64,000 bases of DNA, from the NCBI RefSeq assembly GCF_000761215.1, contig NZ_CP009438.1, forward strand, positions 5,225,501 through 5,289,500. The letters are read 5' to 3'. Below the pieces are notes generated by a model. That model made no database searches, was not told the DNA's origin, and saw nothing but the letters and a program-made list of their open reading frames with translations. Every line of letters starts with the position of its first letter. The first letter of the stretch is position 1. The position numbers were made by a program, and so were the translations under genes. The stretch comes from Streptomyces glaucescens (GTDB lineage: Bacteria > Actinomycetota > Actinomycetes > Streptomycetales > Streptomycetaceae). Below are positions 44,461-51,163 of this stretch, piece by piece.

Positions 44461-45072
44461 TCAGCCCGACAGGCCCACGAGCAGCAGCCGGGTGAAGCTG
44501 CGGACCCACTCCTCGTCCACCGGTTCCGCGCTGATCAGCTCGCGGTGCACGACCGCGCCCGCCACCACGTCGAAGATCAGGTCGACGGTGCGGGCCGCCT
44601 CCGCGGGATCGGTCTCGGGGGGCAGCTCACCGCGCTGCTGGGCACGCGCGCGGCCCGCCAGGACCAGGCGTTTCTGACGGTCGACGATGGAGGCGCGGAT
44701 GCGTTCGCGCAGGGCCTCGTCGCGAGTGGACTCGGCCAGGACCGCCATCAGGCCGTTCCTGGCCTCCGGCCGGGCCAGGATCGCGGCGAACTGGAGGACC
44801 ACGCCCTCGATGTCGGCGGCGAGCGTGCCGCGGTCGGGGAGGCGGAGTTCGTCGAAGAGTTCCGCGACCGCGTCGACGACCAGTTCGTTCTTGCCGGCCC
44901 AGCGGCGGTAGAGGGTGGTCTTGGCAACCCCGGCGCGCGTCGCGACGTCTCCCAGGGTGAGTCGGGACCAGCCGAGTTCGACCAGGGCCGCCCGGGTCGC
45001 GGCCAGGATGGCGGCGTCGGCGGCGGCGCTGCGCGGACGTCCCGCGCGGCCGGCGGTAGTGCGGCTCTGCAT
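44461..45072 (-). CDS. TetR family transcriptional regulator
   Basis: The 203-aa TetR protein has a DNA-binding domain in residues 12-65 (AATRAALVELGWSRLTLGDV, GVAKTTLYRRWAGKNELVV) and a C-terminal domain of the TetR_C_11-like type. I chose the ATG at 45072, because TATGGT at 45080-45085 ends 7 nt upstream (leaderless); an ATG four codons earlier (45084) would overlap that box. A perfect 8-bp inverted repeat (45085-45106) adjoins the promoter. It is convergent with icmA and might also be the regulator of the icmA palindrome, though the two sites differ in sequence. Confidence 0.87.
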   Translation of the reverse strand: MQSRTTAGRAGRPRSAAADAAILAATRAALVELGWSRLTLGDVATRAGVAKTTLYRRWAGKNELVVDAVAELFDELRLPDRGTLAADIEGVVLQFAAILARPEARNGLMAVLAESTRDEALRERIRASIVDRQKRLVLAGRARAQQRGELPPETDPAEAARTVDLIFDVVAGAVVHRELISAEPVDEEWVRSFTRLLLVGLSG

Positions 45073-45084
45073 GGCGACGACCAT

Positions 45085-45166: not shown

Positions 45167-45183
45167 CGCTACGACTCGTAGCG
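45167..45183. promoter_or_regulatory. 17-bp palindrome upstream of the thioredoxin-TPR gene
   Basis: CGCTACGA (45167-45174), a central C, and TCGTAGCG (45176-45183) form a perfect odd-length palindrome, 114 bp before the start at 45297 and 84 bp from the divergent tetR promoter. The regulator is unknown. Confidence 0.55.
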
Positions 45184-46268: not shown

Positions 46269-46286
46269 CCCTTTTGTGACCTTTTC

Positions 46287-46314
46287 CAGCCGCGTTCCGG
46301 GCGGGGCGCGGCTG
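46287..46314 (+). terminator. Terminator after the thioredoxin-TPR gene
   Basis: CAGCCGCG (46287-46294) and CGCGGCTG (46307-46314) form an 8-bp stem with a 12-nt loop, 19 nt after the stop. Confidence 0.55.
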
Positions 46315-46330
46315 TCGTCATGGCACCGAT

Positions 46331-46689
46331 GCGGCCGCGCTTTGCCAAAACTTGGCAAACGCGGCCGCTGTTACTGCCAGTAAGTCGAGGGTTGTGTTCT
46401 GTCGGGTTCCGTCCCGGCATTCCTTCTTTGTCCTCCCCTTCGGATGCACCGAGCGTCGCCGAACGAGACCGGCAGGTCGTTGTTCGGTTATCCGGCCGTT
46501 ACTAGCGAGTAACGAACCCCCTTGTGCGTGCGGCGAGAATGCACCACGATCGGCGACGCTCGGTCCATTCCCCGCATCCCCGGCAGCCGGCCGGGTCACG
46601 GGATTTCCTGGGTCCCCACCGAGCAGAGCCGGCGACCGTGTCGTCGGCTCTTGGACAGGGGGGTCTTCGCCATCCGGCGAAGCCTGTCC
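46331..46689. other. Structured gene-free region upstream of DUF6230 with several inverted repeats
   Basis: The 623-bp gap from 46269 to 46891 has no convincing gene. It holds: a long stem, GCGGCCGCG at 46331-46339 plus TTTGCCAA, paired to 46352-46368 with one bulged base; the palindrome TTACTGCCAGTAA (46371-46383); GTTACT-AGCG-AGTAAC (46498-46513); a hairpin at 46626-46650 with 11-bp arms and one G-T pair; and a bipartite hairpin at 46653-46689, with GGACAG/CTGTCC outside and CTTCGCC/GGCGAAG inside. The two TTACT-AGTAA palindromes look like operators; the last two look like structured leader RNA. Confidence 0.55.
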
Positions 46690-46891
46690 GGCAGGGTTGT
46701 GCGTGATGCGTGTCAGGCGCGACCAGTGGTTGTCGCTCGGGGGTGATCGCCGGTGATTCGGGCGCGGTACGCGCCACCGAGCGCGGGCGCTCTCCTTCCC
46801 GAGGACGTAGCACTTCTCCCATCCCTGTCCGGCTGAGCCGCCGCAAGGGGCCAGTCGGGGCCAGGAGATGTACGTCCGAGAAGGAGGAAAT

Positions 46892-47527
46892 ATGGAGTCC
46901 CAGGTGCGTGGTGGGACCAGATGGAAGCGGTTCGCCGTGGTCATGGTGCCCAGCGTGGCCGCCACGGCGGCGATAGGCGTCGCCCTCGCTCAGGGTGCTC
47001 TCGCCGCGTCGTTCAGCGTTTCCGGACAGTCTTTCAAGGTCACGACCGAGCGTCTCGACGGCACGGGCTTCGTGCAGTACGGCGCTCTCGACGAGGGCTA
47101 CACGCTCGACGGCAAGAAGACGGTTCACCCCGTCGCCGTCTCGGCGTTCAAGTCCGCGACCATCAAGGACATGTGTCAGTCGGTCGTCACGCCGAACATC
47201 CCGGTGCTCGGCAACGTCAGTCTGATCCTGCGGGCCGGCCAGGGTGACACCCCGGTCAAGGCCGAGAACCTGTACATCGACGTCGCCGAGCTGGAAGGCG
47301 ACGCCGTCTTCCGGGGCATCGACATCGGTGTGGCCGCCAAGGACGCCAACAAGGGTCCCGGCATGAAGGGCGGCAAGGAGCAGTCGAACCCGTACGGCTT
47401 CGCGCAGCAGGCCGACTCGGTCACCCTCACCGACGTGAAGCAGACGGCGTGGGCGACCACCGCCGGAACCTTCAAGCTCAGCGGCCTGAAGATGTCGCTG
47501 TCGACGGGTGTGAAGGAGTGCTACTGA
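46892..47527 (+). CDS. DUF6230 family exported protein
   Basis: The 211-aa protein starts at the ATG 46892 after a full AAGGAGGAAA. One N-terminal membrane or signal helix (residues 19-44, VVMVPSVAATAAIGVALAQG) is followed by an outer domain of about 165 residues, predicted mostly beta, with two Cys (near residue 93 in KDMCQSV, and at the end in KECY) that could form a disulfide. Homologues occur in many actinobacteria next to DUF6114 genes; old annotations as cholesterol esterase are not supported by any catalytic motif. Function unknown. Confidence 0.85.
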   Translation: MESQVRGGTRWKRFAVVMVPSVAATAAIGVALAQGALAASFSVSGQSFKVTTERLDGTGFVQYGALDEGYTLDGKKTVHPVAVSAFKSATIKDMCQSVVTPNIPVLGNVSLILRAGQGDTPVKAENLYIDVAELEGDAVFRGIDIGVAAKDANKGPGMKGGKEQSNPYGFAQQADSVTLTDVKQTAWATTAGTFKLSGLKMSLSTGVKECY

Positions 47528-47535
47528 GCACTCGC

Positions 47536-47572
47536 TGACGGGCGGGGGCGCCGGTGGCACCCCCGCCCGTCA
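47536..47572 (+). terminator. Hairpin between DUF6230 and DUF6114 genes
   Basis: A perfect 13-bp stem, TGACGGGCGGGGG (47536-47548) and CCCCCGCCCGTCA (47560-47572), with an 11-nt loop starts 9 nt after the DUF6230 stop. The downstream gene starts 66 nt later. It may be a partial terminator separating expression levels. Confidence 0.65.
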
Positions 47573-47637
47573 TCTCTCCGACTCCGCATTCGCAGTACCA
47601 CTCACCACGGCAACGCCGTTCCAGGGAGCTGTTTTCC

Positions 47638-48216
47638 ATGAGCGCCGAGACTCCTGCCGCACCCGGCCACGACGAGCACTACCTCCGGGTCTTTCGGCGG
47701 AACTTCCGCGCCTGGCGGGGCACCCGGCCGTTCTGGGCCGGCCTGTTCGTCATGCTCGGCGGACTCCCCATCGCCTACTTCCCGTACGCAAATCTCCGGC
47801 TCGGTCACCTCACGCTCGCGATGGCCACCACCGCGGGTGCCGGGTCCCTGATCATCGGCGTGCTGCTCGTCGTGCTCGGCATCAGCCTCTGGTTCCAGAA
47901 GCACGTCCGGTTCTTCGCGGGCGTGGCGGCGATCCTGCTCGCGCTGGTGTCCATCCCGGTGTCCAACCTCGGCGGATTCCTCATCGGTTTCCTGTTCGCC
48001 CTGATCGGCGGCGCGATGGCGGTGTCCTGGGCCGAGGACGCGCCGCCCGCGCAGGAGCCGGCGGACGCCGGGGGAGCGGCCGTCGCCCCCATGGGCACGG
48101 CCACGCAGGCGCCGGTCGCGGACCCGGGCGCCGGCCAGGGCACGGTGGGTGCAACCGACGATCTGTCAGGAACGAGCCCCGGTAACGAGGCGAACGGGAG
48201 GCACAGTGCCGGCTGA
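47638..48216 (+). CDS. DUF6114 family membrane protein
   Basis: The 192-aa protein has a soluble N-terminus of about 35 residues, four membrane helices (about residues 36-57, 62-84, 88-106 and 110-131; for example FWAGLFVMLGGLPIAYFPYA) and a cytosolic or outer Ala/Pro-rich tail. AGGGAG precedes the ATG. It accompanies DUF6230 in many actinobacteria, so the two products probably work as a pair in the membrane. It overlaps the start of the next gene by 11 nt. Confidence 0.85.
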   Translation: MSAETPAAPGHDEHYLRVFRRNFRAWRGTRPFWAGLFVMLGGLPIAYFPYANLRLGHLTLAMATTAGAGSLIIGVLLVVLGISLWFQKHVRFFAGVAAILLALVSIPVSNLGGFLIGFLFALIGGAMAVSWAEDAPPAQEPADAGGAAVAPMGTATQAPVADPGAGQGTVGATDDLSGTSPGNEANGRHSAG

Positions 48217-49642
48217 CGAGGTGACCCACGGGGCTGATGTGGACGATTCCCGTGTGAGAACCGGGCCGCGCCACGCGGCACCCAAGAAGCCGCTGTTCAC
48301 CAGGCTCCACATGCCGGCCGGCAAGGCGATAGCCCTGGCGGCGATGCCCACCGCGGTGCTGATGGGGATGGGGTTCACGCCGAAGCTCGCCCTCGCCGAG
48401 GACCAGCCGGCGTCCCGGAGCCTGACGGCCGACGAGTACAAGGAGTGCGTGGCGGCCCTGGAGGACGCCGAGAACGGCGGGACGCCCGAGGCCACGCCGT
48501 CGCCGTCCGCCTCGGCCGGCGGGAGCGGGGCGCCGTCCGACGGCGGGTCCGAACCGAGCCCGTCGGAGACGTCCGGTCCGGGCGACGCCGGTTCGGGCGA
48601 CGCGGGTTCGGGCGACGAGGGTTCGGGTGACACCGGCTCGGGTACGGACGGAGCCGGTGCGGACGGGACCGGTTCGGGTGACGGTTCTTCGGCGGATTCA
48701 GGTTCCGCCGACGACGCCGAGCCCGCGCCGCCCGCCGCTGCCGGCACCCCGGCGCCCAAGGAGCCGCAGACCGCGCCCTCTCCCTCGCCGTCCAAGACGT
48801 CCGAGGGCGTGCTGGGGACCATCGGCGACACCGTCACCGGGGTCGTGGGCGGTGTCGTCGACGGGCTCACCGGCGGCGGCGCCGAGGAGAGCCCGAGCCC
48901 CACGCCGTCCGCGTCCGCCTCGGCGACCCCGAGCCAGGACACGGGCACGGGCACGGACACGGGCCAGGCCGACGGCCCGGCGGGCGGGGACGGCGGCGAC
49001 AGCGGCGAGGACCCGGCCGAGGAGACCACCGGCGACGTCACCGACGCGGTGCAGGACACCGCCGAGGACGCCGGCGGGACGACGCCCGGAGCGGTCCCGG
49101 AGCCCACCGGCAGCGACGGGGCCACGGCCACGCCGTCGCCCTCGGCGAGCCCCACGACCGACCTGGACGACTGCCCGGTGGCCACGGACGCGGAGGGCGG
49201 GGTGGACAACCCGGTGCCGCTGCCCGACGACCCCTGGTACCTGAACGCCAGCTCACTGACGCTGAAGGGCGCCTCCTACAAGGGCATCGTCGAGGTGCGG
49301 ACCGCCAACGGCACGGTCAAGAAGGTGCTGAAGTACGTCATATCCGGCGGCACCGACATCGGTGACCTGCACCAGACGGTGCAGGACAAGCAGTCGGGCA
49401 AGACGTACCACGTGCGGGCCGCCGAGGGGTCGACGTCGACGATCCGCGACGGTGACACGGTGATGTACACGGAGAGCATCTCGGGCAACCTGCTCGGGCT
49501 GATCCCGATCACCTTCGACCCGGAGCACCCGCCGCCGCTGGACATCCCGCTGATCTACTTCACGAAGGTGAAGGTGGTGCAGGCCGGCCAGTTCGGCGGG
49601 ACCCTGACCGTTCCCGGACTGCACCAGTACACGACCGGCTGA
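48206..49642 (+). CDS. Exported low-complexity protein with conserved C-terminal domain
   Basis: The 478-aa protein starts at a GTG inside the end of the DUF6114 gene, with GGGAGG upstream. A hydrophobic helix (about residues 42-60, AIALAAMPTAVLMGMGFTP) serves as signal or anchor. A stretch of about 240 residues follows, made of Gly/Ser/Asp/Glu/Pro/Thr repeats such as GSGDAGSGDEGSGDTGSG. The C-terminal 140 residues (from DDCPVATDAEGGVDNPVPLP) are non-repetitive and resemble the DUF6230 outer domain in style (SLTLKGASYKGIVEVRTANG). The overlap makes it part of the DUF6230-DUF6114 unit. Confidence 0.8.
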   Translation: MPADEVTHGADVDDSRVRTGPRHAAPKKPLFTRLHMPAGKAIALAAMPTAVLMGMGFTPKLALAEDQPASRSLTADEYKECVAALEDAENGGTPEATPSPSASAGGSGAPSDGGSEPSPSETSGPGDAGSGDAGSGDEGSGDTGSGTDGAGADGTGSGDGSSADSGSADDAEPAPPAAAGTPAPKEPQTAPSPSPSKTSEGVLGTIGDTVTGVVGGVVDGLTGGGAEESPSPTPSASASATPSQDTGTGTDTGQADGPAGGDGGDSGEDPAEETTGDVTDAVQDTAEDAGGTTPGAVPEPTGSDGATATPSPSASPTTDLDDCPVATDAEGGVDNPVPLPDDPWYLNASSLTLKGASYKGIVEVRTANGTVKKVLKYVISGGTDIGDLHQTVQDKQSGKTYHVRAAEGSTSTIRDGDTVMYTESISGNLLGLIPITFDPEHPPPLDIPLIYFTKVKVVQAGQFGGTLTVPGLHQYTTG

Positions 49643-49732: not shown

Positions 49733-51163
49733 TCAGCCGCGGCCGCCCTCGCCCAGGTGGTGCACCCGGACCATGTTGGTGGTGCCGGGGACGCCGGGGG
49801 GCGAACCGGCGGTGATGACCATGATGTCGCCCGGGCTGAAGCGGTTGAGCCTGATGACCTCCTGGTCCACCAGGTCGACCATCTCGTCGGTGCTGTTCAC
49901 GAACGGCACGACGTAGGAGTCCACGCCCCAGCTGAGCGCCAGCTGGTTGCGGGTGGCCTCGTCGGTGGTGAAGGCCAGGATCGGCTGGGCCGCGCGGTAG
50001 CGCGACAGACGGCGGGCGGTGTCACCGGACTTGGTGAACGCCACCAGGCCCCTGCCGCCGAGGAAGTCGGCGATCTCGCAGGCGGCACGGGCCACCGAAC
50101 CGCCCTGGGTGCGCGGCTTCTTGCCCGGGACCAGCGGCTGGAGGCCCTTGGAGAGCAGCTCCTCCTCGGCCGCCTGGACGATCTTCGACATCGTCTTGAC
50201 GGTCTCGATCGGGTACGCGCCCACGCTGGACTCGGCGGAGAGCATGACCGCGTCGGCGCCGTCCAGGATCGCGTTGGCCACGTCGGAGGCCTCGGCGCGG
50301 GTCGGGCGGGAGTTGGTGATCATCGACTCCATCATCTGGGTCGCCACGATCACCGGCTTGGCGTTGCGGCGGCACAGCTCGATGAGCCGCTTCTGCACCA
50401 TGGGGACCTTCTCGAGGGGGTACTCGACGGCCAGGTCGCCGCGCGCGACCATCACACCGTCGAACGCCATGACGACGTCCTCCATGTTGTCCACCGCCTG
50501 CGGCTTCTCCACCTTGGCGATGACGGGGACGCGGCGGCCCTCCTCGTCCATGACCCGGTGGACGTCGGCGACGTCCTTGGCGTCCCGGACGAAGGACAGG
50601 GCGACCAGGTCGCAGCCCATGCGCAGCGCGAACCGCAGGTCCTCGACGTCCTTCTCGGACAGCGCGGGCACGTTGACGGCCGCGCCGGGCAGGTTGATGC
50701 CCTTGTGGTCGGAGATGACGCCGCCCTCGATGACGATCGTCTTCACCCGGGAGCCGTCGACCTCGGTGACCTTCAGCTCGACGTTGCCGTCGTTGATCAG
50801 GATCTGGTCGCCCTTGGCCACGTCACCGGGCAGGCCCTTGTAGGTCGTGCCGCAGATCGTCTTGTCGCCCGGGACGTCCTCGGTGGTGATGGTGAACTCG
50901 TCACCGCGCACCAGCTCGACCGGGCCCTCGGCGAAGGTCGCGAGGCGGATCTTCGGGCCCTGGAGGTCGGCGAGCACACCGATGGCCCGGCCGGTCTCCT
51001 CGGCCGCGGCCCGGACGCGGTCGTACCGGCCCTGGTGCTCGGCGTGGGTGCCGTGGCTGAAGTTGAAGCGGGCCACGTTCATGCCGGCTTCGATCAGCGC
51101 GACCAGTTGCTCGTGGGAGTCGACCGCGGGGCCGAGAGTACAGACGATTTTCGAACGGCGCAT
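49733..51163 (-). CDS. pyk: Pyruvate kinase
   Basis: The 476-aa protein is a complete pyruvate kinase. It starts MRRSKIVCTLGPAVDSHEQL and has the substrate and metal region RFNFSHGTHAEH, the catalytic signature VIAKVEKPQAVDNM and ARGDLAVEYP, and VATQMMESMITNSRPTRAEA. It makes ATP and pyruvate from phosphoenolpyruvate and ADP. S. coelicolor has two such genes; this one is the copy next to ackA-pta. AGGA lies 7 nt before the ATG. The 73-bp gap to ackA contains the palindrome CGGAATATTCCG. Confidence 0.96.
   Translation of the reverse strand: MRRSKIVCTLGPAVDSHEQLVALIEAGMNVARFNFSHGTHAEHQGRYDRVRAAAEETGRAIGVLADLQGPKIRLATFAEGPVELVRGDEFTITTEDVPGDKTICGTTYKGLPGDVAKGDQILINDGNVELKVTEVDGSRVKTIVIEGGVISDHKGINLPGAAVNVPALSEKDVEDLRFALRMGCDLVALSFVRDAKDVADVHRVMDEEGRRVPVIAKVEKPQAVDNMEDVVMAFDGVMVARGDLAVEYPLEKVPMVQKRLIELCRRNAKPVIVATQMMESMITNSRPTRAEASDVANAILDGADAVMLSAESSVGAYPIETVKTMSKIVQAAEEELLSKGLQPLVPGKKPRTQGGSVARAACEIADFLGGRGLVAFTKSGDTARRLSRYRAAQPILAFTTDEATRNQLALSWGVDSYVVPFVNSTDEMVDLVDQEVIRLNRFSPGDIMVITAGSPPGVPGTTNMVRVHHLGEGGRG

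Follow-up and report, generated by a model that had tools for sequence, protein, structure and literature searches.

Which regulator reads the two palindromes that stand upstream of the DUF6230 gene of Streptomyces glaucescens, and what do the genes behind them provide to the cell? The question is raised by a locus in the window, by which we mean the whole 64-kb stretch of DNA analysed, taken from a 7.62-Mb genome designated G000 here. In this locus, hereafter the che locus, a thioredoxin-like gene is followed by a gap of 623 bp (46269-46891) and then by three genes in the same plus orientation, coding for a DUF6230 protein, a DUF6114 protein, and a third exported protein, after which comes a convergent pyruvate kinase gene (Table 1). 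The DUF6230 and DUF6114 genes are each present in one copy in G000. We consider it probable that these genes serve export, are induced by lipids, and are controlled at two levels, namely, by a FasR-like TetR-family regulator and by a folded leader RNA.

Paired palindromes at a fixed spacing

The sequence-only reading of this DNA had placed two palindromes in the gap, and both are found at the positions it gave, namely, TTACTGCCAGTAA with a centre of three nucleotides (N3) and TTACTAGCGAGTAA with a centre of four (N4), the latter lying within GTTACTAGCGAGTAAC (46498-46513). Neither pattern is repeated elsewhere in the window, and 100 dinucleotide shuffles produced neither of them. Conservation was assessed in the 80 nearest orthologous loci, nearly all titled Streptomyces, 79 of which supplied an upstream region, that of L071 being incomplete. 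The strict pattern TTACT-N2..6-AGTAA is present in 78 of the 79, with two copies in 64, and no strict TTACT site occurs at other places in the 80 loci. The half-sites are constant across these loci and the central bases freely variable. When 27 regions from genomes picked for divergence were added and the motif relaxed to TTACY-N3/4-RGTAA, all 106 regions harboured at least one site and 92 harboured both. In every one of these 92 regions, the N3 site lies upstream and the N4 site downstream, and their spacing is 129 bp in 87, 128 bp in four, and 130 bp in one.

The sequence-only reading had expected such palindromes in front of homologous DUF6230 genes. This is so at the orthologous locus, but not for DUF6230 genes generally, since a site within 500 bp accompanies only 1 of 12 paralog matches elsewhere in Streptomyces and 1 of 33 matches outside Streptomycetaceae. 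A paralog at L237, distinct from the che locus, has a lone TTACC-N3-GGTAA about 260 bp upstream.

On its upstream side, palindrome 1 is adjoined by a conserved inverted repeat with TTTGCCAA-AAC-TTGGCAAA at its centre, which is perhaps the terminator of the thioredoxin-like gene or another operator. BldD and GlnR boxes, compared by eye with their consensus, were dropped because their spacing does not fit.

A predicted fatty-acid regulon

The strict pattern has five sites in G000, two of which are those of the che locus. The relaxed motif TTACYN{3,4}RGTAA has 15, compared with one for a reversed control, and the corresponding counts in three other Streptomyces genomes are 12 versus 4, 14 versus 1, and 13 versus 1. 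The 15 sites correspond to 13 loci. Apart from the che locus with its two sites, they mark two acyl-coenzyme A (acyl-CoA) dehydrogenase genes, of which one is divergent from a TetR gene (L272) and the other stands at L275, a large iron-sulfur (Fe-S) oxidoreductase, perhaps EtfD (L277), MaoC-like and FadD genes, where the sites are in tandem (L118), a luciferase-like and aldo/keto reductase pair (L120), and another TetR gene with a divergent gene for a secreted protein (L119). The remaining loci encode an NlpC/P60 protein (L276), a NYN protein (L278), a secretory lipase (L279), a fatty acid hydroxylase (L273), an endonuclease/exonuclease/phosphatase-family protein (L271), and PhoD (L274).

Comparison with the three other genomes, which covered 38 of their 39 sites, showed that nine of the 13 loci have a counterpart site at the orthologous gene in one or more of them, and six, namely, che, L272, L275, L277, L120, and L118, in all three. 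The strict TTACT motif is mostly missing from the 27 loci with orthologs of the L118-type TetR (L177-L203), and the sites of L118, L119, and L120 prove to be conserved once the relaxed motif is used. In L118 (4580-4608), TTACT-N4-AGTAA and TTACC-N3-GGTAA stand in tandem between the MaoC-like and FadD genes, and this pair is likely a strong target of the same regulator.

A FasR-like TetR as candidate reader

The TetR gene of L272 (G000:C1:1123998-1124639) is unlinked to the che locus, and on sequence grounds its product is the candidate reader of the che palindromes. All 17 Streptomycetaceae orthologs of this gene that were examined have an exact site no more than 220 bp upstream, in most cases with a second near-match about 23 bp further, and both of two orthologs from another family (55-56% identity) also have exact sites upstream. 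One and the same operator motif thus marks the gene of the regulator itself and lipid genes scattered over the genome. The ortholog is present in 17 of the 19 Streptomycetaceae genomes searched. Summed over 13 genomes of this family that possess it, the relaxed motif has 143 sites versus 25 in the control, compared with 9 versus 8 in two genomes that lack it.

The protein belongs to the TetR family, with TetR_N (PF00440, E 2.7e-11) and TetR_C_32 (PF19344, E 2e-77) domains, and it matches the FasR crystal structures 6o6n (E 5.6e-18) and 6o6p (E 7.6e-18). Its score against the NCBIfam FasR model is 87.6 bits (E 9.1e-25), below the equivalog cut-off of 330, and it is therefore described here as FasR-like, not as FasR. 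Control by a TetR-like, perhaps lipid-responsive repressor had been proposed from the sequence, and the conserved sites, the marking of fatty-acid genes, and a FasR-like TetR that itself bears the site agree with this proposal, the candidate regulator being encoded elsewhere in the genome.

The che1 leader and its extended fold

The gap had been taken for a non-coding region, which is right as to its position, but it is not featureless, since it contains the che1 RNA of Rfam (RF02935), with a covariance-model score of 99.6 bits against a gathering score of 54.1. This RNA, reportedly described by Weinberg in 2017, was found in all 230 genomes of the window's family and in none of the 15 others from the same order, 230 of 245 in total.

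In the RNAalifold consensus of 30 leaders, both che1 hairpins are recovered, together with a closing helix, P0, which pairs the core left single-stranded by Rfam, and a hairpin taking in the Shine-Dalgarno sequence. In this structure, 97.2% of cells are paired, compared with 95.1% for shuffles and 40-49% for slid controls. Two-sided changes occur in ten pairs, eight of them in che1 stems (helices 3 and 4), one in P0, and one in the second che1 hairpin. The leader of the window folds better than its shuffles overall (z -4.26). Of 106 leaders, 104 have both inner arms of the Shine-Dalgarno hairpin (GGRCGTA and TACGTCC) and two, L238 and L239, have neither. The mean unpaired probability of the ribosome-binding site is 0.26 versus 0.37 in shuffles, being lower in 22 of 27 leaders. 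The fold of che1 with P0 is well supported, and translational gating by the Shine-Dalgarno hairpin is likely, judging from the fold. The extended leader fold, with a hairpin reaching the ribosome-binding site, is new.

With regard to the che1 core GGGGGTGATC (46733-46742), divergent copies have no consistent start codon after it. With a single G-U pair, this core could presumably base-pair with the 3' end of 16S ribosomal RNA. Two further candidates were rejected: a small open reading frame in che1, noticed by eye (ATG frame MRVRRDQWLSLGGDRR in the window), whose start or frame is lost in divergent copies, and an alternative fold in which GGACAGG would pair with another CCTGTCC, at about 46825, since that further copy is not conserved. 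A second, weak che1 match at L146 (G028:C1:6830886-6830969) scores 42 bits, below the gathering score, and its best match to the che1 core looks like coding sequence.

The three proteins

Both family assignments of the sequence-only reading are confirmed, that of DUF6230 by PF19741 (E 1.8e-58, 197.4 bits against a gathering score of 27.5) and that of DUF6114 by PF19609 (E 5.3e-35, 120.7 bits against 27.9). So is the co-occurrence of the two, a DUF6114 gene lying just downstream of 209 of 211 DUF6230 matches, many of which are close relatives or overlapping loci. DUF6230 is present in 61 of 296 genomes of the class. The third protein tends to accompany them, its C-terminal domain being encoded in 13 of 20 loci outside Streptomycetaceae. 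In more distant actinobacteria (L223, L224, and L225), DUF6230-like and DUF6114-like genes form tandem arrays.

The structural model of DUF6230 consists of an N-terminal helix (residues 12-33) and an all-beta domain of long strands, with a mean predicted local distance difference test score (pLDDT) of 86 and domain blocks mostly above 90. Seven residues are invariant in 43 members, namely, W11, R13, F14, S44, C95, G146, and C210. The third protein, for which no Pfam family was matched at E up to 1, had been called low-complexity. This description holds for its linker but not for its last 150 or so residues, which form a conserved beta domain, new to this study (pLDDT 92). The run of strands in this domain is similar to that of DUF6230, and profile comparison of the two gives a probability of 33 and an E value of 4.5e-4; this likeness in strands, together with the weak profile similarity, suggests a common fold. 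A fold search against the PDB gave nothing for either domain at E up to 0.001. A second look gave weak matches to 5upb_D (Z 3.5, root-mean-square deviation 5.3, 101 residues aligned) and to LptG (6mjp_G, Z 3.9, deviation 2.4, 57 aligned), which were too weak to retain as fold relationships. Among solved structures, sequence searches at E up to 1 gave no match to DUF6230, and the third-protein domain had four weak ones (best E 0.33).

Since three genes are followed by the pyruvate kinase gene, and since the che1 leader is present, the orthologous locus in S. coelicolor appears to be SCO5420-SCO5422, SCO5423 being pyk2 (PMC7494193). By gene order, the DUF6230 protein would then belong to the family named secreted 'cholesterol esterase' (SCO5420). 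PMC7494193 reports that SCO5420, under this name, was induced almost 37-fold on Tween40 compared with glucose. The locus had been put forward as a candidate for an undescribed system, but it is not entirely so: the che1 RNA, like the family name, is already published. In the literature searched, DUF6230 or DUF6114 is mentioned by name only in a promoter screen.

Proposed mechanism

Site conservation, genome-wide enrichment, the sites at the TetR gene, conservation of the leader fold, and gene linkage were computed directly. The model built on them is predictive with regard to binding, repression, effector, looping, translational gating, and protein function. The FasR-like TetR would bind both palindromes upstream of the transcript and repress it. 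The fixed 129-bp spacing of N3 and N4 sites suggests that two cooperating dimers may act jointly on them. Long-chain acyl-CoA, formed from incoming fatty acids, would release the regulator and derepress the locus together with the acyl-CoA dehydrogenases, FadD, the MaoC-like protein, and the Fe-S oxidoreductase; according to PMC7382501, FasR of Mycobacterium tuberculosis leaves DNA when binding acyl-CoA of C16 or more. The transcript would start with a long folded leader, in which che1, closed by its extra helix, is followed by the hairpin into the ribosome-binding site, and this hairpin could damp translation until opened. The expected products are an exported DUF6230 protein, a small DUF6114 membrane protein, and a second exported protein with a DUF6230-like beta domain. 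As induction by hydrophobic carbon, the fatty-acid regulon, and the FasR-like TetR agree, the three products most likely handle hydrophobic substrates (esters, fatty acids, or lipids) at the cell surface.

A bolder version of the model, which we regard as speculative and rather improbable, is that the che1 leader represents a new class of cis-acting sensor, for a lipid, an acyl compound, or the state of the envelope, placed atop the acyl-CoA-controlled TetR, and that the three proteins form an envelope lipid-handling machine of an all-beta fold without close solved relative. If so, the name 'cholesterol esterase' would describe lipid binding or transfer and not ordinary hydrolysis. In any case, an orphan locus gains a testable circuit in the form of a candidate regulator, a consensus operator, fatty-acid genes predicted to be co-regulated, and a leader with predicted switching parts, and there is reason to re-test the cholesterol-esterase assignment of DUF6230.

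Alternative explanations

The most serious alternative, short of probable in our view, is that DUF6230 does act as a secreted esterase, its active site being of an unusual kind, and that the locus is simply an operon of enzymes for esters of sterols and fatty acids. The family name and the Tween induction favour it, and later papers credit Xiang et al. (2007) for actinomycete cholesterol esterases. Against it, 43 diverse members contain no invariant or nearly invariant histidine and only four of them a GxSxG motif, so that DUF6230 appears, from its sequence, to be without a catalytic-triad signature, and the mature domain is predicted to be all-beta. The missing PDB match is neutral in this respect.

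Several results weigh against the model as we have drawn it. Repression is proposed on account of the Tween induction, whereas mycobacterial FasR is an activator. Four of the 13 loci, including that of the secretory lipase, have no conserved site in the three other genomes. In the leader, none of the two-sided changes falls in the Shine-Dalgarno hairpin (30 leaders), and the gating effect is modest, the window itself having an unpaired probability of 0.34 versus 0.38, with 9 of 20 shuffles as low. As to the regulator, the two Streptomyces genomes G035 and G108 have no close ortholog of it (best E 1.1e-18 and 5.1e-18) but retain a single TTACC-N4-GGTAA site in the che locus, so that co-loss of TetR and palindromes in these genomes is complete with the strict motif and only partial with the relaxed one. 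Seven outgroup genomes are motif-rich (82 versus 19 in the control, summed), and four of them have no TetR match above 33% identity. Moreover, upstream of the TetR paralogs L317-L320, which are 33-35% identical, there are TTACC..AGTAG/C sites with one mismatch.

These regulator results would suit a different reader, either a FasR-like paralog (e.g., G000:C1:5026789-5027337, 33% identical) or the TetR encoded in the window. We find this unlikely, since exact N3 and N4 sites stand upstream throughout (17/17) only in the group of the L272 TetR. The window TetR has a palindrome of its own, CGCTACGACTCGTAGCG, of which at least 15 of 17 positions are kept in every locus shown (those with less than 300 bp of the region were skipped), and which is the probable autoregulatory operator of this second, unrelated TetR. 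Because of this distinct conserved palindrome, and because no strict TTACT occurs elsewhere in the 80 loci, the window TetR is probably not the reader, and the FasR-like TetR of L272 is retained as the candidate.

It is doubtful, too, that che1 is a trans-acting small RNA that merely sits before the gene. Its Rfam type ('Gene; sRNA') and its nearly invariant core TGGTTGTCGCTCGGGGGTGATCGCC would fit such a role, but che1 precedes DUF6230 on the same strand in all 26 aligned leaders, the consensus fold pairs its core with an element further upstream, and the conserved structure extends to the start codon. In S. lividans, moreover, che1 has been listed as a cis-regulatory element of SLIV_11405, with RNA sequencing support. 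Finally, that the palindromes are RNA hairpins or leftovers with no role as DNA operators, as the inverted repeat adjoining palindrome 1 might suggest, is very improbable given half-sites kept around varying centres and the genome-wide enrichment of the motif at fatty-acid genes.

Table 1. Features of the che locus and its surroundings, with positions in the window
Feature	Position	Strand	Remarks
Window TetR gene	44461-45084	-	probably not the reader of the TTACT sites
Palindrome CGCTACGACTCGTAGCG	45167-45183		upstream of the window TetR gene
Inverted repeat GCGGCCGC..TTTGCCAA-AAC-TTGGCAAA..GCGGCCGC	46331-46368		near-perfect; read from the sequence, columns conserved in the alignment
Palindrome 1, TTACT-N3-AGTAA	46371-46383		operator-like
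Palindrome 2, TTACT-N4-AGTAA	46499-46512		operator-like
Helix P0 closing the che1 element	46610-46751	+	46610-46630 pairs with 46728-46751; 5' side outside the Rfam model; RNAalifold, pair counts, 30 sequences
che1 RNA (Rfam RF02935)	46652-46752	+	
Shine-Dalgarno hairpin	46795-46887	+	conserved; 3' arm runs into GGAGG (46883-46887)
DUF6230 protein ('cholesterol esterase' family)	46892-47527	+	hydrophobic N-terminal helix, then all-beta domain
DUF6114 membrane protein	47638-48216	+	hydrophobic stretches 58-133; four helices by eye
Third protein	48206-49642	+	N-terminal hydrophobic signal-like stretch, low-complexity linker, conserved C-terminal beta domain (49184-49639)
Pyruvate kinase gene	49733-51163	-	neighbour; fits the order SCO5420 to SCO5423

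Comparison with known systems

Like KstR and KstR2 of mycobacteria, the proposed regulator would be a TetR repressor with a dispersed lipid-catabolism regulon, but its targets are others, and its operator would be a different one. Our literature search, which covered few subscription journals, found no paper on the TTACY-N3/4-RGTAA operator in Streptomyces, and a 2017 paper on beta-oxidation in S. coelicolor states that, for the catabolism of fatty acids and triacylglycerols, regulatory signals and genes were still undescribed. With M. tuberculosis FasR, as presented in PMC7382501, the candidate shares the TetR fold, a related effector domain, lipid genes as predicted targets, and several inverted repeats per promoter. 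It differs in that its predicted targets serve fatty-acid use, whereas those of FasR are fas-acpS, and in the proposed sign of control.

The DUF6230 protein resembles P21 and P16 of Geobacillus, alkane-induced exported proteins of PMC2676291, in being secreted or membrane-anchored, about 200 residues long, and induced by hydrophobic substrates. Their mature N-terminus is reported there to resemble the S. lavendulae enzyme and is similar to the mature start of DUF6230, but the same source finds their full-length similarity negligible by BLAST. The likeness to the SCO5420 family is one of gene order with pyk2 and of the che1 leader, and no conserved hydrolase motif was found in the members compared here. 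The leader, for its part, passes the gathering score of Rfam che1 and occupies the same place before a cholesterol-esterase-type gene; whereas the Rfam model spans 91 positions and leaves the 3' core unpaired, the leader described here adds an upstream closing helix and then a hairpin that leads to the ribosome-binding site.

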